Counted from the first letter of the stretch, positions 10,120 through 57,342 are shown. The stretch: DNA of 64,000 nucleotides from an uncultured Spirochaetota bacterium (GCA_937872225.1 CALMRZ010000028.1:62001-126000), one strand, 5' to 3'. Translations and numbers: made by a program. The notes: generated by a model from the sequence alone, not told the origin.

Positions 10120-10262
10120 TTCGTTCCCCACGACATAATACGGCTTCAATTCATAAATATTAGTGGACGCATTGCTTCGTATCTGCACTACTATCACTAT
10201 CCGCACGCGGCCGGGGGACCCTGCGCGGATTTGTTGTTCCGTTCTCTTTGTCCGGATGCACT

Positions 10263-13200
10263 ATGAGCGTAATCAGCGGATATTCCATAACCGAGAAGAT
10301 AGCCGAGGGAGGCAAGTCCGTCGTGTACCGCGGCGTCCGTGAGAGCGACGGGTTGTCCGTGGTGCTCAAGATCATCAGGGCCGTCCATCCGACCCTTGCC
10401 GATATCGCCCGCTTTAAAAAAGAATACGACCTGATAAAAACCATCCAGATCGACGGCGTCATAAAGACGTACGGCCTTATAGAGGAAAAGGACCGCATCG
10501 CCATGGTCCTGGAGGACTTCAGCGGCTGCTCCATCAAGGATGTCATAAACACCAGGAGGTTCGGCATCGAGGAGTTCCTCGAGGTCGCCATACCCGTGGC
10601 CGATACCCTGGGGTATATCCACACGCACAAGATAATCCACCGGGACATCAAGCCGCATAATATATTGTACAACGCGACAACGGGCGAAGTCAAGATAACC
10701 GATTTCGGCATAGCCTCGCTCCTCGGAAGGGAACATGAGAATATCTATGACCCCTGGATGATCACGGGCACACTGCCGTATCTCTCCCCGGAGCAGACCG
10801 GTCGGCTCAACCGCACCATCGACTACCGGACCGACCTGTATTCACTCGGCATCAGCTTTTACGAGATGTTGACCGGCTCGCTTCCCTTCGCGTCAAAGGA
10901 CCCCCTTGAACTGCTCTACTGTCACATAGCACGGGAGCCGGCACCGCCGGACCAGGTGAACAGGGATATTCCCGAGGCGTTATCTGACATCATCCTGAAG
11001 CTCATCTCAAAAAACGCTGAAAACCGGTACAACAACAGCTACGGGTTGAAAAAAGACCTCGAGGAGTGCCTGTTCCAGCTGAAAAAATACCGGAAAATAT
11101 CCCGGTTTGAGCTGGGAACCGCCGATTTCATGAACAGGTTCAGCCTTCCCCAGGTGCTCATTGGAAGGGAGCGGGAAAAGGCCCTGATGACGGACGCCTT
11201 CAGCCGGGTTAGCCAGGGTGCCGTTGAAATGGTCGTGGTTGCCGGCCCTCAGGGCATCGGCAAGACCGCGCTGGCAATGGAGCTGGAGAAGAACGTCACC
11301 GGCAGAAAGGGATATTTCGTTTCCAGTAAATACGAGCTGTCCCGGCAGAGCGTTCCCTACAGCGCGCTCATCCATTCGTTCCAGAAACTGATGCTTCTGA
11401 TACTGACGGAAGGTGAGGACCGCATAGCGGGGTGGAAGGAATGCATCCTGGCTGCCCTGGGCGACAACAGCAGGGTCATAACCGACGTCATTCCGGAGCT
11501 GGAGCTGATCGTTGACCGCCAGCCGGTCCTGGCCGAGATGGACTCCGAAAAGTCCCAGTACCGGTTCAACAAGGTCATCGGCGAATTCATCCGGATTTTC
11601 ACAAAGCGCGAGCACCCGCTCGTCATTTTTCTCGATGACCTCCAGTGGGCCGACGCCGCGAGCCTCAATCTTATATCGCGCATTCTGACCGATTTCAGTT
11701 CCGGGTACCTGATGCTGGTGGGAGCGTACCGCAGCTCCGAACTCGGCCCGGACCATCCCCTCCGCGACATCCTGGAAGCTTCGAAGGACCGGATCACCGC
11801 GTTGAGCCTTGATCCGCTGACGCCCGCCGATATCGGCTGCTACATCTCGTATCTCGTCAACAATGAAAGGGAAGAGGTTGATGCCCTTGCGGCGGTGCTG
11901 CACCAGAAAACGAACGGGAATCCTTTCTTCCTGGAGAACCTGCTGAGGAGCATTTTTGACAGCCAGCTTCTGAGGTACGAACCGCCGGGAGGATGGAAGT
12001 GGGACCTTGACATGATCAGGGGCCTGCAGGTGTCGGAAAATGTCGCCGAGCTCATGGTCGGGAGGATCACCGGCCTTGACCCGCAGGTGCAGCATGTCCT
12101 CCGGCTTGCCGCCTGCATCGGCAACCGCTTCGACCTCGAGGACATGGCCCTTCTGCTGGAGAAGGACATCCAGGAAACGCTGTCCGTGCTCCAGAGGGCC
12201 ATCGACGAGGGATTGATATACCTTTCCAATAAACACTACTGTTTTGTCCATGATAAAATCCAGGAGGTCATCTATTCACTCATCCCGCCGGGGGAGGCGG
12301 AGCTTACGCACTACCGGATCGGACGGCTCGTTATGGGCAGGTCCCGGGGCGAGCAATTGTATGAGAAGGTTTTTTACATTGTAAACCAGTTCAATGCCGG
12401 ATCGTCGCGGATTTTGTCACGCGAGGAAAAAATTGAGATTGCCGGCCTAAGCCTTCTGGCCGGACGCAAGGCCAAGTCGGCAACGGCCTATTCCGAGGCC
12501 CTCAGGTATTTCAGCGCCGGCATAGGACTGCTGGAGAATGATTCATGGGAGAAGGATTACCGGCTTGCCTATGATCTCTATTTCGAAAAGGCCGAATGCG
12601 AATATCTGAACGCCAATTTTGACGATGCCTTCATGCTTTTCGATTACGTCATAGACCATGCCGTGAACATCATTGACCGGGCGAAGGTTTACGATAAGAA
12701 GGTCATCATCTACACCAACATGGGGTCCCACCGGACTGGAATGGAGTGCGGGCTTGAGGCCCTGAAGCTGTTCGGCATCACTATTCCGGCGAAGCCCGGC
12801 AGGGGCGGACTGGTTCGAGAAATCATGAAGGCGAGGATTCTCCAGGGGAGGCGCAGCGTCGAGGACCTTATGGACTCGCCGGAAATTACTGACCCTGAAG
12901 TCATGATGATCATCATTCTCTGCATCAACACCGGCACGGCCGCCTATTTCATCGACAATGATATCGTGGCGCTGCTGGCTATGAAAATGGTAAACCATAC
13001 CCTCCGGTACGGCAACTCGAAACATTCATCGATCGCCTTTCTTTCCTACGCCCTGATACTGGGCTCCGGCATGGGCCGGTATGAAGATGCGTACCGGTTC
13101 GGCATGCTGGCCATGGAGCTGAACGAAAAATACAACAACGAAGACCTGAAGCCGAGGATCCTTTTCATCTTCGGGTTCCTGATAAGCCATTGGCGCAAGC

Positions 13201-15455
13201 ACTACATGCGGACCATTCAGCTCATGGAGCGGTCATACCGGGTGGGCATTGAGACCGGGGACATCAATTATGCGGTGTTTTCGGCGGTCAATATCATACA
13301 ATTTCGCATCAAGTTTGGCCACAACCTGGACCAGGTCTTCGAGGAGATGGCCGGGTACCAGGGCTTTGTCTTGGCCTCGAAAAACGAGGAGTTCATCTAC
13401 GAGCTGACCATGAGCGAGCGGTACATCCTGAGCCAGAAGTCGAGGACCAGGTCGCTGTCCGATTACAGCGACGATGGATTCAACGAGCAGGAGTTCGTTG
13501 GCAAGATAAAAAAATTCAGGGTAACGACGTACAGCTATTACACATACAAGCTGATGTCGCATTTTTATGCGAAGGAATACGAAGCGGCCATTGTCCTGGG
13601 ATCGGCGGCCGACAGGGATATCCGGGACATTCTCTACTCCCAGGCCAACAATGCGTTTTTTTATTACTATTATTCCCTCGCCCTTCTCTCGGCCGGACCT
13701 GCCGGATCCAAGCGGAAGGCCCGGTGGCGCATGAGACAGGTGGCGAAAAACCTGCGCCTGCTCAGGGTATGGTCGAGAAATTCACCCGAGAATTACCGCT
13801 CCATGTATCTCCTGGTCAAGGCCGGGCAAACGGCCGCCCGGGGGCCCCATTCGCGGGCGGCCGATCTCTTTGACGAGGCGATACGGGAGGCCCGGACGAA
13901 CGGCTCGTCCCTCTGCGAGGCGACCGGGAACGAGCGGGCCGCGGAGTACCACCTGTCGCGGGGCAATGAGTTCGTCGCGCGGGCCTATCTCGTTGAGGCG
14001 CACTACTGCTACGCGAAATACGGCGCCTCGGCCGTGGCCCACCGGATCAGCCAGGAATATCCCCAGTTCATCGCCGGAGACCACCCCTCCGCCCCGGTGG
14101 ATGCGGGAAAGGAGCACACGGGCACCTCGTCCGGCACCATGGGGATGGATTTCAGCCTCCTCCTGAAGACCACGCAGCTTATCTCGGGCGAGATAGTGCT
14201 GGAGAAGCTTCTTAAAAAACTCCTCGTCATCATAGGGGAGTGCGCAGCTGCGACGAAGGGGGCCCTCGTAATGGAGAAAGAGGGCGCCCTGGTGGTAGAG
14301 GCGTGCGGTGACATCGCCACGGGCCAGATCGAGGTCCTGAAAAGCACCCCCCTCTACGCCAGTAGCGATCTATCCCCGGCGGTCATCCACTACGTGGCCA
14401 GGACCAAGGAGAACCTGGTTCTCCATGACGCGTCAAGGGCAGGTATTTTCGTCAACGATCCCTATATCAAGAAAAACCGGTGCAAGAGCGTCCTCTGCCT
14501 GCCCATCATGCACCAGACAAAGCTTTCGGCGATCCTCTACGCGGAAAACAACCTGACCACACGGGCCTTTACCGGCGAGCGGATAGAGCTCCTGAAGACC
14601 CTGGCTTCGTACGTGGCGATATCAGTGGACAACGCGAGCCTCTACGCAAGCCTCGAGGACAAGGTCAGGGAGAGGACCATGGCCCTCGAGTATGCCTATG
14701 ACCAGGTCACCAAGGCGTACCAGACCATCCAGGAGGACATTTCCCTGGCCAGGCGCATCCAGGAGAATATTTTACAGAGCCGGATCTGCGAAGATTCGCC
14801 GTTCAGGTTTGACATACGATTTTATCCCATGAGCGAGGTGGGCGGTGATATATACGACATCGTGGAGATCAAGCCGGGGATACTGCGCGTCTTGCTGGCC
14901 GACGCGACCGGCCACGGGATCCAGGCGGCCCTGGTAACGATGCTCATCAAGGGTGAGTACGAGAAGCTCAAGTACCAGCATATCGCCCCGTCTGATGTAA
15001 TGAGGGTCCTCAACAACGAGTTTTTCAACCGGTACGGGAACCTGTCGGTGCTCTTTTCCTGCATCATAACCGACATCGATATCAACACCCGCTCGATGCG
15101 GTATGCCTCCGCCGGGCATCCGGACCAGTACCTGGTCAGGGGCGAAGAGATCACGGTGCTCAGCCGGACCGGAAAGATCGTCGGTTTCGGCCGGGACCTC
15201 GAGTACGGGTGCGGCGAGATACCGATAACTCCCGACGACAAGGTGGTCCTGTTTTCCGACGGCATCTACGAGGAGTTCGACATGGACATGAAGGAGTACG
15301 GCGAGAAGCGGCTGATGGAAATTATCAGGAAGTTTTCCCGGCAGCCGGTCCAGGTAATAACCCGCAGCATAATCCAGGACGTCCGCAATTTCATCGGAAA
15401 GGAGCGCATCAACGCCAATGACGACGTCACCATCATCGGCATCGAAATGCGGTGA
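10263..15455 (+). CDS. Giant fusion: Ser/Thr kinase, AAA-type ATPase, TPR-like region, GAF, SpoIIE/PP2C phosphatase
   Basis: 1730 residues, cytoplasmic. Kinase domain at about 5-270 with Lys36, HRDIKPHN (126 on), DFG (147) and a GTLPYLSPEQTGR activation segment: all catalytic residues present. An AAA/STAND-type ATPase follows, with Walker A GPQGIGKT at 328-335 and Walker B ending FLDDLQWAD near 455-461. A long helical region (about 690-1290) is TPR-like. A GAF domain lies at about 1300-1455, then a short coiled coil (1466-1505). The C-terminal domain (1505-1730) is a SpoIIE/RsbU-type PP2C phosphatase with metal-binding Asp in GGDIYD, DATGHG and FSDGIYEEF. A sensor that could both phosphorylate and dephosphorylate partner-switch proteins. 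Such fusions occur in spirochaetes, cyanobacteria and others. Start: ATG at 10263. Confidence 0.92.
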   Translation: MSVISGYSITEKIAEGGKSVVYRGVRESDGLSVVLKIIRAVHPTLADIARFKKEYDLIKTIQIDGVIKTYGLIEEKDRIAMVLEDFSGCSIKDVINTRRFGIEEFLEVAIPVADTLGYIHTHKIIHRDIKPHNILYNATTGEVKITDFGIASLLGREHENIYDPWMITGTLPYLSPEQTGRLNRTIDYRTDLYSLGISFYEMLTGSLPFASKDPLELLYCHIAREPAPPDQVNRDIPEALSDIILKLISKNAENRYNNSYGLKKDLEECLFQLKKYRKISRFELGTADFMNRFSLPQVLIGREREKALMTDAFSRVSQGAVEMVVVAGPQGIGKTALAMELEKNVTGRKGYFVSSKYELSRQSVPYSALIHSFQKLMLLILTEGEDRIAGWKECILAALGDNSRVITDVIPELELIVDRQPVLAEMDSEKSQYRFNKVIGEFIRIFTKREHPLVIFLDDLQWADAASLNLISRILTDFSSGYLMLVGAYRSSELGPDHPLRDILEASKDRITALSLDPLTPADIGCYISYLVNNEREEVDALAAVLHQKTNGNPFFLENLLRSIFDSQLLRYEPPGGWKWDLDMIRGLQVSENVAELMVGRITGLDPQVQHVLRLAACIGNRFDLEDMALLLEKDIQETLSVLQRAIDEGLIYLSNKHYCFVHDKIQEVIYSLIPPGEAELTHYRIGRLVMGRSRGEQLYEKVFYIVNQFNAGSSRILSREEKIEIAGLSLLAGRKAKSATAYSEALRYFSAGIGLLENDSWEKDYRLAYDLYFEKAECEYLNANFDDAFMLFDYVIDHAVNIIDRAKVYDKKVIIYTNMGSHRTGMECGLEALKLFGITIPAKPGRGGLVREIMKARILQGRRSVEDLMDSPEITDPEVMMIIILCINTGTAAYFIDNDIVALLAMKMVNHTLRYGNSKHSSIAFLSYALILGSGMGRYEDAYRFGMLAMELNEKYNNEDLKPRILFIFGFLISHWRKHYMRTIQLMERSYRVGIETGDINYAVFSAVNIIQFRIKFGHNLDQVFEEMAGYQGFVLASKNEEFIYELTMSERYILSQKSRTRSLSDYSDDGFNEQEFVGKIKKFRVTTYSYYTYKLMSHFYAKEYEAAIVLGSAADRDIRDILYSQANNAFFYYYYSLALLSAGPAGSKRKARWRMRQVAKNLRLLRVWSRNSPENYRSMYLLVKAGQTAARGPHSRAADLFDEAIREARTNGSSLCEATGNERAAEYHLSRGNEFVARAYLVEAHYCYAKYGASAVAHRISQEYPQFIAGDHPSAPVDAGKEHTGTSSGTMGMDFSLLLKTTQLISGEIVLEKLLKKLLVIIGECAAATKGALVMEKEGALVVEACGDIATGQIEVLKSTPLYASSDLSPAVIHYVARTKENLVLHDASRAGIFVNDPYIKKNRCKSVLCLPIMHQTKLSAILYAENNLTTRAFTGERIELLKTLASYVAISVDNASLYASLEDKVRERTMALEYAYDQVTKAYQTIQEDISLARRIQENILQSRICEDSPFRFDIRFYPMSEVGGDIYDIVEIKPGILRVLLADATGHGIQAALVTMLIKGEYEKLKYQHIAPSDVMRVLNNEFFNRYGNLSVLFSCIITDIDINTRSMRYASAGHPDQYLVRGEEITVLSRTGKIVGFGRDLEYGCGEIPITPDDKVVLFSDGIYEEFDMDMKEYGEKRLMEIIRKFSRQPVQVITRSIIQDVRNFIGKERINANDDVTIIGIEMR

Positions 15456-16650: not shown

Positions 16651-17409
16651 ATGATCGGAAAAAAAATTCGTTTGCAGAGATTGATCAACCGTAACACGGG
16701 AAAGACCATCATCGTGCCTATGGACCACGGCGTCACCGTGGGCCCGATCCCCGGCCTGATCGACATGGCCAAGACCGTCAACAGCGTCGCCGACGGCGGG
16801 GCCAACGCCATCCTGATGCACAAGGGAATCGTCGAGACGGGGCACCGGAACTCCGGCAAGGACATAGGCCTGATCGTTCACCTGTCCGCCAGCACCGTGC
16901 TCGCGCCTGATTCCAACGCCAAGACCCTGGTCTGCTCCGTTGAAGAGGCGGTCCGCCTCGGCGCCGACGGCGTGTCAATCCACGTCAATATAGGCGCCAA
17001 CACCGAATCTGAAATGCTCGGCAAGATGGGAATGGTGTCCCGCGGCTGCCGTGAATGGGGGATGCCCCTCCTGGCCATGATGTACACCCGGGGGGCCAAG
17101 ATCAAGAACGAGTATGACGTGAACGTCGTCAAGCACGCTGCCCGCGTCGGCGCGGAGCTCGGCGCCGATATCGTGAAGGTGAATTATACCGGTTCCCCCG
17201 AATCCTTCAACGAGGTCGTGATGGGGTGCCCGGTGCCGGTCGTGATCGCGGGCGGCGAAAAGATGGAGACCGACGAGGAGATACTGGAGATGGTCAGAGG
17301 CTCGATAGAGGCCGGCGGGTGCGGCGTTTCCATCGGCCGCAACGTGTTCCAGCATGAGGACCCTGCCACCATCGTCCGAAAGATATCGGAGATCGTACAC
17401 GGGAAGTGA
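16651..17409 (+). CDS. 2-amino-3,7-dideoxy-D-threo-hept-6-ulosonate (ADH) synthase
   Basis: 252 residues, DhnA-type class I aldolase. Features: [10 protein letters not shown] (substrate-binding Asp), Tyr in MMYTRG, and the Schiff-base Lys in [14 protein letters not shown], followed by the phosphate-binding IAGGEK and [11 protein letters not shown]. In archaea the enzyme (AroA') condenses aspartate semialdehyde with 6-deoxy-5-ketofructose phosphate to make the precursor of 3-dehydroquinate. The neighbour three bases downstream encodes DHQ synthase II, the next step, which makes this assignment much firmer than fructose-bisphosphate aldolase. An enzyme pair for aromatic amino acid synthesis without DAHP. 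Confidence 0.9.
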
Positions 17410-17412
17410 TGC

Positions 17413-18417
17413 ATGAAAGAGATATGGCTGCACCTGACATCTTGGGACAAGAAGCTCGTGACCGAATCGCTGGAGTCCGGCGTCGATGCCATAATAACGA
17501 CTGACGACTTCGTTCCCCGCGTCAAGGAGCTCGGCCGGATGGCGGTCATCGCCCCGGAGCAGGGGGACCGGCGGATCCCCGATGACGTTGAAATGATCAT
17601 CATCAAGAACAAGGACGACGAGAAGAGGGCCGCGGAAGCGCTGAAGACCCGTTCGGTCGTGGCCCGCACCACGGACTGGAACATCATCCCCCTGGAAAAC
17701 CTGATCCCGCAGGGCGGCGAGCGCCTGTATACCTTCGTGAGGAACGCCTCTGACGCGAAGCTTGCCGCCGGCATCATGGAAAAGGGCGTTGCCGGCGTGG
17801 TCCTCGAAACCGATGATCCGTCCGAGATCGCGAAGGTCGTCCGGTACATCAAGGGCCTCGACAGCGAGAACTACCGCCTGGCGAGCCTTGAGGTGACGGC
17901 CATACAGAACATCGGCATCGGCGACAGGGTATGCGTCGATACCTGCAGCAATATCAACCTGGGCGAGGGCCTCTTGGTGGGCAACGGAAGTCAGGGCATG
18001 TTCCTCGTCCACGCCGAAAATATCGACAATCCCTATGTCGCGCCCCGGCCCTTCCGTATCAACGCCGGCGCGGTCCACTCCTATGTCAGGGTGCCGGGAG
18101 GAAAGACCCGGTATCTCGGCGAGCTGAAGACCGGCGACCCGGTCCAGATCGTCACGAAGGACGGCGGCACCTACACGTCCTACGTGGGCCGTTCCAAGAT
18201 AGAAAAGCGGCCGATGCTGGTCGTTTACGCCGTTGACGAAAACGGCGCGGAGCATTCGGTGGTTCTCCAGAACGCCGAAACGATCAGGCTCACGGCCCCC
18301 GACGGGAGCGCCGTCAGCGTGGCCCAGCTGAAGCCGGGCGACCGCGTTCTCGGTTATCTGGAGAAGGGGGGGCGCCATTTCGGCATGGCCGTGGAAGAAA
18401 CAATACTGGAGCGGTAA
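17413..18417 (+). CDS. 3-dehydroquinate synthase II (archaeal type)
   Basis: 334 residues, full length. Recognised by the N-terminal VTESLESGVDAIITTDD, the central GIGDRVCVDTCSNINLGEGLLVGNGSQGMFLVHAEN and the C-terminal RVLGYLEKGGRHFGMAVEE stretches. It oxidatively deaminates and cyclises ADH to 3-dehydroquinate using NAD, replacing AroB. It forms an operon with the ADH synthase gene (gap of three bases). The later shikimate genes are not in the window. Confidence 0.92.
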   Translation: MKEIWLHLTSWDKKLVTESLESGVDAIITTDDFVPRVKELGRMAVIAPEQGDRRIPDDVEMIIIKNKDDEKRAAEALKTRSVVARTTDWNIIPLENLIPQGGERLYTFVRNASDAKLAAGIMEKGVAGVVLETDDPSEIAKVVRYIKGLDSENYRLASLEVTAIQNIGIGDRVCVDTCSNINLGEGLLVGNGSQGMFLVHAENIDNPYVAPRPFRINAGAVHSYVRVPGGKTRYLGELKTGDPVQIVTKDGGTYTSYVGRSKIEKRPMLVVYAVDENGAEHSVVLQNAETIRLTAPDGSAVSVAQLKPGDRVLGYLEKGGRHFGMAVEETILER

Positions 18418-33932: not shown

Positions 33933-35489
33933 TTGCGGACACAGGTTTTAGTAATCGGCGGCGGGGCTACGGGGACAGCGGTAGCACGCGATCTTGCCCT
34001 GCGCGGCGTGCAGTGCATCCTGGTGGAAAAAGGCGACCTGAACTCCGGCGCGTCGGGCGGCAATCACGGCCTTCTCCACAGCGGCGGAAGGTATGTCACC
34101 AATGACAAGGAGGCAGCCCGGGAATGCAAGCTGGAAGGCGACATCGTCAAGCGGCTGATGCCCCAGTGCGTTGAGGACACGGGGGGATTGTTTGTCGCCG
34201 TCCGTGGCGATGATGAGAAGTTCATTGCCGATTATCCCTCCCATTGCGCCGAGTGCGGGGTCCCCTGCGAGGCCATTTCGCCGCAGGAGGCCCGCGAACT
34301 CGAACCGACCCTCTCGGAAAACGTTATCGCCGCCTACAGGGTCGAGGACGCGTCGGTGGACCCGTTCAAGCTCACGCTCCTCAACATCAGCCAGGCCATA
34401 TCCCTCGGATCGCGCCGTCTCCGCAGCACGAAAGTCATAGGATTCGATATACATAATAAGAAAATAGAGCGGGTGCTGGTAAGAAATGTCAATACCGGCA
34501 ATGAATTCCACATAGAGGTCGAGCAGGTCGTGAACTGCGCCGGGGCCTGGGCGAACCAGATCACCGGGCTGGCCGGCATCGAGGTGCCCATCCAATATTC
34601 CAAGGGCACGCTCCTGGTCACGAATGACCGGATTAACTACCGCATCATTAACAGGCTCAGGAAGCCCTCCGACGCCGATATCCTGGTTCCCGGCGGCACC
34701 GTGTCCATCATCGGCACCACCTCGACCCCGGTCGAAGACCCCGATGACATTTATCCCACCGTTGAAGAAGTAGACCTTATCGTACGGGAAGGAGCGGTCA
34801 TGGTGCCGGTGCTTGAACGGAGCCGCTTTGTCCGGGCATACTGCGGCGTGCGGCCCCTCTTCGGCAAGAGCGGCGGCAGCGACGGCAGGAATGTCAGCCG
34901 CGGATTCGCGCTCCTCGACCATTCAAAAGAAAATGTCGATAACCTGACGACCATAACCGGCGGCAAGCTCACGACCTTCCGGCTCATGGCCGAGAAGACC
35001 GTCGACCTGGTTTGCCGGAAGATGGGGGTCACGGCCCCCTGCCTGACCAGGACCGAGCCGCTGCCGACGACCACCGGCGGCCAGTGGACCGAACCGGGCA
35101 TATCTCCCAAGAGATGGATGCGTTCCCATGAACCGGACGATATCATGATATGCGAATGCGAGATGGTCACCCGGAGGGCCATTGACGAGATCATCGAGTC
35201 GCTGAAAGGGCATAATGAAAAGCCGGGCCTGGTCGATATCTGCATGCGGACCCGCCTCGGCAGGGGAGCCTGCCAGGGCGCGTTCTGCGGCATGAGGGCC
35301 GCAGCCTACCTGTACGAGCGCGGCGAATTGACCGGGCGCGAGGGGATCGTCGATATCGGGAAGTTTTTCCAGGAGCGCTGGAAGGGCATACACTCAATCC
35401 TCTGGGGCGACCAGCTGATCCAGGCGGAGCTCATGGAATCAATCCACTGCGGGCTCTTCGACGAAGAGCTGTACACACCATCCAGATGA
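33933..35489 (+). CDS. glpA: Anaerobic glycerol-3-phosphate dehydrogenase subunit A
   Basis: 518 residues. FAD-binding VLVIGGGATGTAVARDLA at the N terminus, GNHGLLHSGGRYV, NCAGAWANQI and ITGGKLTTFRLMAEKTVD are typical of the GlpA/GlpD family. The C-terminal BFD-like [2Fe-2S] domain (ICECEMVT ... GRGACQGAFCGMR) marks the anaerobic GlpA type. It oxidises glycerol-3-phosphate to dihydroxyacetone phosphate. The start is a TTG at 33933, seven bases after AGGAG; no ATG is suitably placed. glpB follows after 16 bases. Confidence 0.95.
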   Translation: MRTQVLVIGGGATGTAVARDLALRGVQCILVEKGDLNSGASGGNHGLLHSGGRYVTNDKEAARECKLEGDIVKRLMPQCVEDTGGLFVAVRGDDEKFIADYPSHCAECGVPCEAISPQEARELEPTLSENVIAAYRVEDASVDPFKLTLLNISQAISLGSRRLRSTKVIGFDIHNKKIERVLVRNVNTGNEFHIEVEQVVNCAGAWANQITGLAGIEVPIQYSKGTLLVTNDRINYRIINRLRKPSDADILVPGGTVSIIGTTSTPVEDPDDIYPTVEEVDLIVREGAVMVPVLERSRFVRAYCGVRPLFGKSGGSDGRNVSRGFALLDHSKENVDNLTTITGGKLTTFRLMAEKTVDLVCRKMGVTAPCLTRTEPLPTTTGGQWTEPGISPKRWMRSHEPDDIMICECEMVTRRAIDEIIESLKGHNEKPGLVDICMRTRLGRGACQGAFCGMRAAAYLYERGELTGREGIVDIGKFFQERWKGIHSILWGDQLIQAELMESIHCGLFDEELYTPSR

Positions 35490-35505
35490 GGAGCGCTGAC
35501 CGTCA

Positions 35506-36834
35506 ATGACACTGCCGAAATCACATAATTACGATCCCACGCATGTCTTCGATGTCATGGTCATCGGCTCCGGGATCGCCGGGATGGCCGCCTCTCTGTT
35601 TGCCGTGAACCGGAAGCTCTCGACCGTGCAGGCGGGGAGCGTGGGGGGCACCCTCTTTACCAGCGGCCTCTTTGACCTTATCTCGGTATACCCTGTGGGC
35701 GAGAAAAAACTGTGGGAGAATCCCTGGGAGGCCCTGGACGCCATGCGCCGTGACGGATCGCGCCATCCCTACAACCGCATCAGCAAGGAGGACATACAGG
35801 TGTCCTTCGATGAAATGATATCCTTTCTCGGCGCTTCGGGCATGAAGCTGCGTTTCGATCAGAACCGCAATCTCAAGGTCATCACCTCGATGGGGACCAT
35901 CAAATACACCTATTGCGTGCCCGATTCGATGTGGCCCGGCGTCGAGGCCTATGAGACGAAAGCGCCGTGCCTGATCGTCGATTTCAATGGGCTGAAAGAA
36001 TTCAGCGCCCGACAGGTTGCCACGACCCTCAGGGAAGAGTGGCCGGCCCTGCGGTCGCTGCGCGTCGCCTTCCCCGGCATGGCGGGGCGCGACGAGGTCT
36101 TTGCCGCCCACCTGGCCCAGGCGCTGGAACTGTCCGAAACGCGGATTGCCCTTGCCCGGATGGTCAAGCCGGAGCTCGGGGACGCGCGTTTCGTGGGTCT
36201 CCCGGCCGTTCTCGGCATAAAAAGGACCCAGACCATCATCGCGCATCTCGGGAGGCTTCTCGGCGTCCCGGTCTTTGAAATACCCATGATGCCGGCGTCC
36301 GTCCCGGGCTTCAGGCTCAAGGAAATATTTGATTCGGAACTGCCCCAGAAGGGCCTTCTCCGCCTCATAGACAAGCGGGTCATGTCGGTCAATCGCGCTG
36401 AAAACGGGAATTTTCTTCTTAACATCGGCGGCAACAACGAATCGCAGGTAATCCAGGCCAGGTCCGTGATCCTGGCGACCGGAAGGTTCATGGGCAAGGG
36501 GCTTCTCTCCGACCGGCAGGGCATTTTCGAGCCGTTGTTCAACCTTCCGCTCCATCAGCCGGATAACAGGACCGCCTGGCACCATGAAAGGTTTCTGCAT
36601 CCGGCAGGGCACCCGATCAACAGCGCCGGTGTCGATGTCGATGACAGTTTCCGGCCCGTCGACGCGGAAGGCAGGCCGATATACGACAACCTGTTCGCGG
36701 CGGGGACCATCCTTGCCCACCAGGACTGGATGAGGATGAAGTGCGGTTCCGGCCTTGCCATAGCCACCGCCTATGCGGCGGTCACCGCCTTCATCGAGAA
36801 TTTCATGAAACAATCCACCAGGGAAAGCGCGTAA
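35506..36834 (+). CDS. glpB: Anaerobic glycerol-3-phosphate dehydrogenase subunit B
   Basis: 442 residues. Rossmann motif VMVIGSGIAGMAASLFA near residue 18 and the C-terminal FAD-binding YDNLFAAGTILAHQDWM...GSGLAIATAY are typical of GlpB. GlpB binds FMN/FAD and passes electrons from GlpA to the membrane subunit. Its TAA overlaps the next ATG by one base (TAATG), so translation is coupled. Confidence 0.92.
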   Translation: MTLPKSHNYDPTHVFDVMVIGSGIAGMAASLFAVNRKLSTVQAGSVGGTLFTSGLFDLISVYPVGEKKLWENPWEALDAMRRDGSRHPYNRISKEDIQVSFDEMISFLGASGMKLRFDQNRNLKVITSMGTIKYTYCVPDSMWPGVEAYETKAPCLIVDFNGLKEFSARQVATTLREEWPALRSLRVAFPGMAGRDEVFAAHLAQALELSETRIALARMVKPELGDARFVGLPAVLGIKRTQTIIAHLGRLLGVPVFEIPMMPASVPGFRLKEIFDSELPQKGLLRLIDKRVMSVNRAENGNFLLNIGGNNESQVIQARSVILATGRFMGKGLLSDRQGIFEPLFNLPLHQPDNRTAWHHERFLHPAGHPINSAGVDVDDSFRPVDAEGRPIYDNLFAAGTILAHQDWMRMKCGSGLAIATAYAAVTAFIENFMKQSTRESA

Positions 36835-38555
36835 TGATCAAGACTCTGCTCGAATCAACATTCCTTTTTGCGTGTCTGTACATGGCCCTCGGCATCTGCG
36901 CCCTCGGCATCCTGATACGCATCGCGCGCTGGTTTGCCGCCGATATCGGGCCGCGGTCGGCGGTGATCCCGGTATGGATGAGGGTTGCCGCCGCGACAAA
37001 AGGATTTGTCGCAACGGTATTCAGCCTCCGGTTCTTCCTCTTCTTCAAGGTGCTTGTCTTGGATGTCATGCTCCAGGCCCGGATAATCAAGACCGACCTG
37101 TCGCGTTGGATCATGCACATATTCATATTCTTCGGCTTCATGCTGCTGCTCCTCATGCACGCACTGGACGAGCTGGTCACGAAAAAAGTGTTCCCCGAGT
37201 ACTATTCGACCCTGGCCCCGTTTCAGCAGCTGCGGAACGTGTTCGGCCTCATGGTCATCGTCGGCGTCGCCATGGCGATATACCGCCGCGTGCGGCAACG
37301 GGGCCCCATGCTCATCACCAGATATGCCGACCGGTACGCGGTCATCATACTCGCGGTGATCATGATCAGCGGGTTCCTGGTCGAGGCATCGAAGATCACC
37401 TCGGAGAGCGTTTTCAACCGGATGATGAAGGATTTTTCCTCCGCCGGCGGCCCCGCCGACGAGGACGCCATCAAGGCCTTCTGGTCCGGCGAGTACGGCA
37501 CGGTGTTCGCCGACTTCAAGACGCCGGTAACGCCGGAGCTGATCGCGAGGGGAAAACAGCTCAACGATGAAAGCTGCGGCTCCTGCCACGCGCCGACAAA
37601 AACGGCCTTCATTTCCTTTCCCGTGGCCAGGGCGCTCCGTCCCGCCGCGGTGCCCATGGACCGGATACAGGCCGATGTCATTTTATACTATGTCCATGTC
37701 CTGGCCTGCTTCGCCGGCCTTGCCTATCTGCCCTTCAGCAAGTTTTTCCATATCATAACCGATCCCCTGACCATGATCGTGAACGGCATGTCCGACAAGA
37801 AGAAGGTGAACCAGGCCGGCGCCATGCCCCGGAGGGCCATGGAGCTTGACGCCTGCACCAATTGCGGTACCTGCAGCCGCTACTGTTCCGTTGCGCCGGT
37901 GTTTCGGATGACCGGCAACGAGACGATATTGCCGTCGCACAAGATCCGCACCATCAGGTCCCTCAGCTCCGGTAAAAAGACCGGGGCCGATGAACTGCGG
38001 AAGATCTCTGAAGGGGCCTTTATCTGCACGTCGTGCTACCGGTGCACCGAGGTGTGCCCGACCGGCATCAACCTCCAGGACCAGTGGTTCGCATCGAAGG
38101 AACTCCTGGCCGAGAAGGGGTACCCGCTTCCCCACGTGTGGATGAAGCAGTTCAACGCTTCGGAATGGTCCGACCGGATCAGGGCGGGGGAGGCCACCCG
38201 GGAGAAGGACGTTGACACCATCAAGGGCCGCTATTATAATCTCACAGCCGATTCCGACGTGTTCGCCCCCTGCATACAGTGCCAGACCTGCACCAACGTG
38301 TGCCCGGTCGTTGCGGCCCAGACTGACAGGAAGGACGCCGTGGATATAACGCCGCAGAAGATCATGAACCTGCTCCGGCTGGGGCTCAATGACCTCGCCA
38401 TGGGATCGCGGATGGTCTGGGACTGCACCACCTGCTACCAGTGCCAGGAACACTGTCCCCAGGGCATACAGGTTACCGATATAATTTACGAGCTGAAAAA
38501 CAAGGCCTACGGACATTTCAAGAACATAGACAGAACGGCCGGCAACGATTCTTAA
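36834..38555 (+). CDS. Membrane electron-transfer fusion: HdrE/NarI-like cytochrome b, c-type heme site, four [4Fe-4S] clusters (in place of GlpC)
   Basis: 573 residues. Residues 1-200 contain about five membrane segments with paired His (for example His95 and His109) as in NarI/HdrE b-heme proteins. A soluble loop carries CGSCH at 248-252, a c-type heme attachment motif. Another membrane pair with His residues follows (about 285-325). Then come four ferredoxin-type motifs starting at Cys341, Cys398, Cys480 and Cys531, each CxxCxxCxxxCP-like except the first, which ends in Ser. This is two HdrC/GlpC-like double-cluster modules in tandem. E. coli GlpC has one such module and no heme. It lies where glpC is expected, so it probably links GlpAB to quinone or to HdrB. 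Confidence 0.85.
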   Translation: MIKTLLESTFLFACLYMALGICALGILIRIARWFAADIGPRSAVIPVWMRVAAATKGFVATVFSLRFFLFFKVLVLDVMLQARIIKTDLSRWIMHIFIFFGFMLLLLMHALDELVTKKVFPEYYSTLAPFQQLRNVFGLMVIVGVAMAIYRRVRQRGPMLITRYADRYAVIILAVIMISGFLVEASKITSESVFNRMMKDFSSAGGPADEDAIKAFWSGEYGTVFADFKTPVTPELIARGKQLNDESCGSCHAPTKTAFISFPVARALRPAAVPMDRIQADVILYYVHVLACFAGLAYLPFSKFFHIITDPLTMIVNGMSDKKKVNQAGAMPRRAMELDACTNCGTCSRYCSVAPVFRMTGNETILPSHKIRTIRSLSSGKKTGADELRKISEGAFICTSCYRCTEVCPTGINLQDQWFASKELLAEKGYPLPHVWMKQFNASEWSDRIRAGEATREKDVDTIKGRYYNLTADSDVFAPCIQCQTCTNVCPVVAAQTDRKDAVDITPQKIMNLLRLGLNDLAMGSRMVWDCTTCYQCQEHCPQGIQVTDIIYELKNKAYGHFKNIDRTAGNDS

Positions 38556-38615
38556 GAAGGAGCCTCCTGATCGGTCAGATGACCGGAGGAGCGGTACCAT
38601 CAGGATACGGGACAT

Positions 38616-39500
38616 ATGAAATTCGCGTTTTTTAAAGGGTGCAAGATACCGTACTACCTCGGGCAGTACGAGACTTCAACGAGGGCGGTGCTCAAGCCCT
38701 TCGGGGTCCGCCTTGTGGACCTGGAATTCAATTGTTGCGGCTATCCGAACCGGGACCTCTATTTCGAGTCCTTCGTGCTTTCCGCTGCGCGCAACCTGGC
38801 CCTCGCCGAGAAGAAAAAGCTCGATATCGTAACGCCCTGCAAGTGCTGCTACGGCAGCCTCAAGCACGCCGTGCATTACCTCCATGAAAACGAAAAGCTG
38901 CGCAGGGACGTCAATGCGGTGCTGGCCGGGGAAGGGCTTTCCTGGAAGGGAACGATACAAGTGCACCACCTCCTCACGGTGCTCTGCGATGACATCGGCC
39001 TTCCGGCGATATATGCGAGCATCGTCAGGCCCCTGGGCGGGCTCACTGTCGCCGCGCACTACGGCTGTCATGCCCTCAGGCCCAGCAACGTGGTCCACTT
39101 TGACGATCCCCTGGCGCCGTCAATCTTCGAGGACCTCATCGCCGCGACCGGGGCAAAGACCGTTGACTGGCCCCGCCGTCTCGACTGCTGCGGCAACCCG
39201 CTGCTCGGAAAGAATAACGCCCTCTCGCTGTCCCTCATGCGGACAAAAACTTCAGACGCCGCCGAGTCCGGGGCGGACTGCATCTGCACGGCCTGCACAT
39301 ACTGCCAGATACAGTTTGACGCGGTTCAGAGCGCGGAAACCCCCGAGGACCAGCGCGAATCGATGGTCCCCGCGATCCTCTATACCCAGCTCCTCGGCCT
39401 GAGCATGGGACTGTCTGAGAGGTCCCTCGGCATCAGCAGGAACGCGCTCTCCATAGAAAAGCTGGGGCCTGCGTGGAAACTGCTCCCCGGGGCCTTCTGA
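38616..39500 (+). CDS. hdrB: Heterodisulfide reductase subunit B-like protein (two CCG domains)
   Basis: 294 residues. Two Cys-rich CCG domains: the first has the Cys in KGCKIPYYL, NCCGYPN and PCKCCYGS; the second has YGCHALRP, LDCCGNPLL and CTACTYCQ. In methanogen HdrB each CCG domain binds a non-cubane [4Fe-4S] cluster and reduces disulfides. A gap of 60 bases separates it from the membrane fusion gene. Whether it reduces a disulfide here or just carries electrons is unknown. GlpC of E. coli also ends in CCG domains, so HdrB supplies the part missing from the upstream protein. Confidence 0.9.
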   Translation: MKFAFFKGCKIPYYLGQYETSTRAVLKPFGVRLVDLEFNCCGYPNRDLYFESFVLSAARNLALAEKKKLDIVTPCKCCYGSLKHAVHYLHENEKLRRDVNAVLAGEGLSWKGTIQVHHLLTVLCDDIGLPAIYASIVRPLGGLTVAAHYGCHALRPSNVVHFDDPLAPSIFEDLIAATGAKTVDWPRRLDCCGNPLLGKNNALSLSLMRTKTSDAAESGADCICTACTYCQIQFDAVQSAETPEDQRESMVPAILYTQLLGLSMGLSERSLGISRNALSIEKLGPAWKLLPGAF

Positions 39501-57217: not shown

Positions 57218-57268
57218 TGTGTACCGCCCGGTAGAAGAATTGGAAGATAGTCGATTGGTAAAACTTTT

Positions 57269-57342
57269 CGGGGCGAGAGGATTTGAACCTCCGACCCCTT
57301 GACCCCCAGTCAAGTGCGCTAACCGGACTGCGCTACGCCCCG
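57269..57342 (-). tRNA. tRNA-Pro (anticodon GGG)
   Basis: 74 bases on the minus strand with full cloverleaf: acceptor CGGGGCG/CGCCCCG, D arm GCGC/GCGC, anticodon stem CTTGA/TCAAG with loop CTGGGGG (anticodon GGG), and T arm GGAGG-TTCAAAT-CCTCT. C1-G72 is typical of bacterial tRNA-Pro. The CCA end is not encoded. It lies 51 bases upstream of the EIIA fusion gene and is in the same direction. Confidence 0.97.

Follow-up and report, generated by a model that had tools for sequence, protein, structure and literature searches.

The anaerobic glycerol-3-phosphate (G3P) dehydrogenase of Escherichia coli, GlpABC, has in its GlpC subunit two [4Fe-4S] clusters and a CCG part, but no hemes. In 2025 it was stated that bacterial glpA is consistently accompanied by glpB and glpC (PMC11962113). 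Here we describe an operon from an uncultured Spirochaetota bacterium that shares GlpA and GlpB with the E. coli enzyme and has, instead of glpC, a gene for a membrane fusion protein (the fusion) followed by hdrB. It lies at positions 33933-39500 of a stretch of 64,000 nucleotides (GCA_937872225.1 CALMRZ010000028.1:62001-126000), called the window when its whole length is meant (Table 1). We put at about even the chances that the product of the operon is a G3P dehydrogenase bound to the membrane, with the fusion and HdrB standing in for GlpC and electrons delivered to the outer face, a periplasmic c-type carrier being a likelier acceptor than menaquinone.

Related systems

In 2009 two membrane proteins that include HdrC and HdrB parts, HdrF1 and HdrF2F2', were reported to be clustered with glpAB in Desulfobacterium autotrophicum HRM2, and electron flow from G3P through the HdrF proteins, to the quinone pool or to Hdr, was proposed (PMC2702500). 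Heme c is not mentioned in the accessible portions of that account. Two of the three glpAB loci of this strain (L211 and L212) have the order glpA-glpB-fusion-hdrB with a CXXCH motif, and both match HdrF1 and HdrF2F2' as described in those portions. To that extent the gene combination was already known at the annotation level, and by its gene content the spirochaete operon belongs to the same HdrF-GlpAB kind, sharing the four-gene order and a membrane fusion that has both CXXCH and four motifs for [4Fe-4S] clusters. The differences lie in the heme c motif (CMDCH in both HRM2 copies, CGSCH in the spirochaete), a shorter N-terminus, and identities of only 33–34% for the fusion and 40–41% for HdrB. 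At one HRM2 locus (L212:3158-5686) the stop codon of the fusion gene is in frame with the hdrB start, one codon apart, which may explain why HdrF2 appears in the accessible text of 2009 as a selenoprotein fusion.

EtfD, studied by cryo-electron microscopy, is an electron wire in which CCG clusters, cubanes and a single b heme link a flavoprotein to menaquinone (PMC13083937). This protein, the membrane subunit of EMO (structure 9ojn), shares with the spirochaete operon a NarI-like domain of five transmembrane (TM) helices, a [4Fe-4S] dicluster, two CCG domains and the passage of electrons from flavoprotein to membrane. It differs in being one chain with one b heme, one dicluster and no heme c, and in having ETF as its partner. 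The heterodisulfide reductases HdrDE and HdrABC share HdrB and HdrC homologues with the operon, in which coenzymes M and B play no part, HdrC is doubled and fused to a b cytochrome, and the flavin partner is GlpAB. The HotSeep-1 complex (PMC10553843), likened here by its description, also combines Hdr subunits with heme c, but has HdrA where the operon has GlpAB. Finally, the methylene-tetrahydrofolate (methylene-THF) reductase of Sporomusa ovata, MetVF-HdrCBA-MvhD, uses another substrate and another flavin subunit than the GlpAB operon, and its membrane-integral partner could not be identified (PMC9430772).

The operon and the replacement of GlpC

A reading of this DNA made from the sequence alone had recognized glpA, glpB, the fusion gene and hdrB, and all four were found in that order, co-directional on the + strand. 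The glpA gene starts with TTG at 33933 and has GAGGAG upstream. The TAATG coupling that had been noted after glpB is present (36832-36836), with an overlap of one base between the glpB stop and the fusion start, but the genes are not evenly spaced, with successive gaps of 16 bp, the 1-bp overlap and 60 bp. A longer open reading frame from GTG 36741, called mechanically, was rejected as the fusion gene in favor of the one that begins with ATG 36834. The gene order is kept in six of six genomes of the spirochaete genus, among them the Spirochaetes metagenome-assembled genomes (MAGs) RBG_13_51_14 and RBG_16_49_21, with differing flanking genes; together with the ligand invariance described below, this is conservation well past chance.

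GlpA scores 594 bits on TIGR03377 (cut-off 552.8), and GlpB 219.6 bits on TIGR03378 (cut-off 174.15) and 572.5 bits on NF003725 (cut-off 345), as expected of the GlpA and GlpB equivalogs. With the GlpC family the fusion reaches 32.2 bits against a cut-off of 279.9, and no GlpC lies above the cut-off elsewhere in the genome, where the top score is 42.5 bits. By these family assignments the fusion and HdrB take the place of GlpC, and the larger membrane complex with added hemes and a separate HdrB that had been proposed from the sequence gains support. Loci with glpA-glpB-fusion-hdrB are counter-examples, with a quite different membrane partner, to the rule stated in 2025, and the statement itself indicates that a GlpC-free arrangement is not widely appreciated (PMC11962113).

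Both CCG motifs of HdrB are complete, and all ten cluster cysteines, the ligands of two non-cubane clusters, align with those of M. thermolithotrophicus HdrB (5odc_B, E 4e-57). On the HdrB equivalog family TIGR03288 the protein scores 229.5 bits against a cut-off of 345.15, and its second-best family is SdhE of methylmenaquinol:fumarate reductase. The retention of all ten cysteines, and the proposal of DsrC for a complex of HdrA, heme c and CCG proteins (PMC10553843), would fit a catalytic HdrB of the heterodisulfide reductase type, through which G3P would be linked to a disulfide/thiol protein, for example DsrC. However, the CCG clusters of EtfD are plain relays (PMC13083937), so that a disulfide role of HdrB is possible but not needed; the SdhE relationship and the score below the equivalog cut-off also speak against it, no disulfide partner gene is present in the operon, and a trans-membrane heme chain would be superfluous. 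We consider catalysis by HdrB improbable, and the disulfide/thiol link suggested by the sequence-only reading is favored by the preserved clusters of HdrB and by little else.

Two further observations concern the region upstream of hdrB. A perfect sigma-70 consensus (TTGACA, 17, TATAAT) is found at 38212-38240, within the fusion gene and about 380 bp 5' of hdrB; it is possibly an internal promoter, or a chance occurrence. A hairpin between the two genes was rejected (z -1.45, absent in congeners).

The fusion protein

The AlphaFold model of the fusion has a mean predicted local distance difference test score (pLDDT) of 87 and five TM helices (residues 9-35, 89-110, 130-154, 164-189 and 280-301). 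Its best PDB match in Foldseek is EtfD 9ojn (E 5e-6, TM-score 0.45), matches to NarI and HdrC being weak, and Nitrate_red_gam matches residues 133-189 with 24.6 bits, a weak score yet above the cut-off. QmoC was rejected as a full-length relative (75.8 bits against a cut-off of 300), as were GlpC, SdhB and HdrC on their family cut-offs. The membrane and iron-sulfur parts have the EtfD/EMO fold; EtfD, however, has its CCG domains in the same polypeptide, whereas here they sit in a separate HdrB, and in place of an ETF donor glpAB adjoin, with no etfAB among the open reading frames beside the operon.

Ligand conservation was scored across 109 aligned homologues of the fusion. The four histidines H95, H109, H288 and H306, as well as M197, C248, C251 and H252, are invariant in all 109. 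By analogy with NarI, H95 and H306 would bind an inner b heme and H109 and H288 an outer one. All four [4Fe-4S] motifs noticed in the sequence-only reading are present (C341/344/347/351, C398/401/404/408, C480/483/486/490 and C531/534/537/541), and Fer4_8 matches two stretches of the protein. The cysteines scored are invariant in 109 of 109 except for one gap at C537, which coincides with a homologue that ends at a contig end; C541, scored in a 65-row alignment, is invariant there. Selenocysteine was also considered and rejected: TGA codons were flagged within the matches, but none in frame replaces a cysteine in the extracted homologues, and those that were mapped fall outside the conserved ligand positions.

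The c-type heme motif CGSCH that had been reported is likewise present. Among the homologues the two X positions of CXXCH vary widely, while the TM4-TM5 loop that carries it has a near-constant length of 87–93 residues. Invariant C, C and H, free X residues and a steady loop length are the pattern expected of a genuine heme c site, and a chance occurrence was rejected on these grounds. Basic residues per ten positions amount to 1.54, 0.33, 2.93 and 0.81 in loops 1-4 and to 1.08 after TM5; by the positive-inside rule these counts put the iron-sulfur domains on the inside and the N-terminus on the outside, together with the CXXCH loop, which is predicted to face the periplasm. Maturation genes of the CcmC/CcmF type are present in the genome, as a c-type cytochrome would demand. 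We infer that heme is covalently attached at CGSCH; the invariant M197 is perhaps its sixth ligand.

The motif is absent from 15 of 15 EtfD-like proteins of related spirochaetes, which points to heme c as an addition of the fusion family. One EtfD/EMO-like protein of 705 residues is encoded in the genome of the window itself (L034:7615-9732); it has two CXXCXXCXXXC motifs, no CXXCH, and only one histidine in the helix that matches TM2. Judged from these comparisons, the fusion family is an EtfD/HdrDE-like wire divided between fusion and HdrB and lengthened by one more dicluster, one more b heme (the outer one) and, on the outer face, heme c.

Electron path and acceptor

We infer that the four proteins form a complex in which electrons run outward from G3P. 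GlpAB, by its family membership, would oxidize G3P to dihydroxyacetone phosphate (DHAP) in the cytoplasm. From its flavins and [2Fe-2S] cluster electrons would pass to the clusters of HdrB, then to the second, HdrC-like dicluster and the first, and from there by way of the inner and the outer b heme to the periplasmic heme c, an order modeled on the EtfD structure and on the predicted topology. The membrane potential, negative inside, would favor this outward movement of electrons, and a donor near -190 mV, the potential of the G3P/DHAP couple, could in that way feed low-potential carriers on the outer face. With a couple at this potential the direction depends on conditions, and electrons from the outer face or from quinol might serve to make G3P from DHAP for lipid synthesis; the presence of a glycerol kinase gene in the genome and the carboxylate uptake genes that adjoin the D. 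autotrophicum operon speak against this reversal, which we regard as very improbable indeed.

As to the acceptor, PF02621 (MqnA/MqnD) is absent from six of six genomes of the genus (G000-G005, all drafts) and present in 24 of 40 others of the family and order. MenD is above the cut-off in none of the six. Neither the futalosine nor the classical menaquinone route was thus found in the genus; for ubiquinone the search extended to the UbiA superfamily. The genus is likely to lack menaquinone, which makes the quinone link proposed by the sequence-only reading doubtful here. We modestly favor exit at the outer face over transfer to quinone, and in this genus the final acceptor would most likely be a periplasmic c-type carrier.

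Several observations weigh against this. The genomes that lack menaquinone genes are drafts, a prenyltransferase resembling MenA is encoded (101 bits, below the cut-off of 277), and the EtfD-like protein encoded in the same genome belongs to a type whose known acceptor is menaquinone; an unrecognized or scavenged quinone is possible in view of the latter two. In addition, no periplasmic cytochrome partner was identified. The same complex and wire might then, like EtfD and GlpABC, pass electrons to a membrane quinone, with heme c as a relay or second outlet. EtfD does reduce menaquinone (PMC13083937), the fold of the fusion is of the NarI type, the Desulfobacteria that bear the operon include menaquinone-using sulfate reducers, and the quinone pool is one of the two acceptors named in the accessible part of the 2009 account (PMC2702500). 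Yet the enzymes missing from all six genomes argue against it, and a quinone reductase would not need a heme c that is invariant in 109 homologues. We therefore treat a quinone acceptor as a serious contender, though with a probability well short of even.

Distribution and exchange of partners

In a scan of GTDB contigs 252 relatives of the fusion were detected, and the best 80 of the 252 are mostly from Desulfobacterota. Among 291 genomes of the class Desulfobacteria, sampled as the class of a Desulfocicer MAG, the fusion was found in 141 and GlpB in 135; by coordinates the two genes lie side by side in at least 21. When 17 such loci were inspected, 16 had all four genes and one ended before hdrB. 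The combination of four clusters with a cytochrome c site is thus not the unusual one that it had been taken for, since about half of the sampled class has the fusion and the four-gene order recurs. The claim to novelty is thereby half undone: the order is common, but no biochemical characterization was found in the open-licence literature.

Elsewhere the fusion is partnered by HdrA, often together with MvhD or proteins of the formate or NADH dehydrogenase type, or by MetVF. Three spirochaete genomes (G001, G002 and G028) have a second copy beside MetF genes, followed, where the contig continues, by HdrB, HdrA, MetV and MetF (Table 1). From this gene context the paralogues are candidates for the membrane anchor of an Hdr-type methylene-THF reductase. 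In several Desulfobacterota (L188-L192, L194, L195 and L078) no recognized dehydrogenase gene adjoins the fusion and hdrB, which may therefore work with proteins encoded at other loci.

In a quick tree with some long branches, a single branch separates the Glp-partnered fusions from all others (Shimodaira-Hasegawa-like approximate likelihood ratio test, 96). The spirochaete Glp-type fusions sit among sequences from Desulfobacterota, which suggests that they were gained or passed on by horizontal transfer. The linker is shorter in the Glp types (63–80 residues) than in the HdrA types (about 93), a difference that would be in line with a contact specific to each partner. On the evidence of gene neighborhoods, one module is common to GlpAB and to HdrA/MetVF, and the same wire and HdrB would elsewhere carry electrons from HdrA, MvhD and MetVF, the methyl-THF couple having nearly the same potential as G3P/DHAP.

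Table 1. Coordinates of the operon, of features within the fusion gene, and of fusion paralogues; positions are those of the window unless a locus is named.
Feature	Position	Strand	Description
glpA	33933..35489	+	flavin adenine dinucleotide-dependent G3P dehydrogenase catalytic subunit with C-terminal BFD-like [2Fe-2S] domain; DAO and Fer2_BFD matches
glpB	35506..36834	+	flavoprotein subunit of anaerobic G3P dehydrogenase; TIGR03378, NF003725
fusion gene	36834..38555	+	573 aa; NarI/HdrE-like putative di-heme b domain, predicted outer-face c-heme loop, two HdrC-like [4Fe-4S] diclusters
TM2	37098..37163	+	residues 89-110 (model helix); putative b-heme ligands H95, H109
TM4-TM5 loop	37401..37670	+	residues 190-279, predicted periplasmic; invariant M197, W217, C248, C251, H252
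heme c motif CGSCH	37575..37589	+	residues 248-252
TM5	37671..37736	+	residues 280-301 (model helix); putative b-heme ligand H288; H306 just past helix
first [4Fe-4S] dicluster	37854..38057	+	C341 to C408; Fer4 matches
second [4Fe-4S] dicluster	38271..38456	+	C480 to C541; closest to HdrC (TIGR03290 best stretch 479-559; PDB HdrC chains, E 1e-11)
hdrB	38616..39500	+	two-CCG-domain subunit, ligands for two non-cubane clusters
fusion paralogue	L031:8858-10513		same genus, about 40% identical; MetF-like gene before
fusion paralogue	L032:8241-10112		same genus, about 40% identical; MetF-like gene before; HdrB, large HdrA, MetV, MetF after
fusion paralogue	L033:7795-9615		same order, about 40% identical; MetF-like gene before; HdrB, large HdrA, MetV, MetF after

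Other features of the window

Away from the operon, positions 16651-18417 encode a DeoC/LacD-family aldolase and then 3-dehydroquinate synthase II, the archaeal-type entry to the shikimate pathway, in a spirochaete. Positions 10248-15452 encode a protein of 1735 residues that unites Ser/Thr kinase, AAA, GAF and SpoIIE phosphatase domains. The sole Rfam match in the window is a tRNA at 57268-57342.

Significance

Three aspects have not been pointed out in the open-licence literature: the predicted heme c on the outer face, the sharing between GlpAB and one-carbon enzymes, and the occurrence in bacteria without known menaquinone synthesis. New here are a module shared by GlpAB and HdrA/MetVF with a single split in the tree, the extension of an EtfD-like wire by heme c and an outer b heme, and its presence in a genus in which neither known menaquinone pathway was found. 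The fusion paralogues, flanked by MetF on one side and HdrB-HdrA-MetV-MetF on the other in members of the same genus and order, provide a concrete candidate type for the missing membrane-integral partner of the Sporomusa enzyme (PMC9430772), a matter that bears on how acetogens and acetate oxidizers conserve energy. We offer, as a tentative and rather unlikely generalization, that an interchangeable wire of HdrB, four cubanes, two b hemes and one c heme forms a quinone-independent outlet through which donors near -200 mV (G3P with GlpAB, methyl-THF with MetVF-HdrA) would reduce periplasmic cytochromes, helped by the membrane potential, in a lineage in which no known menaquinone pathway was found. 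Should the outlet be periplasmic, electrons from G3P and methyl-THF would have a route that bypasses quinones.

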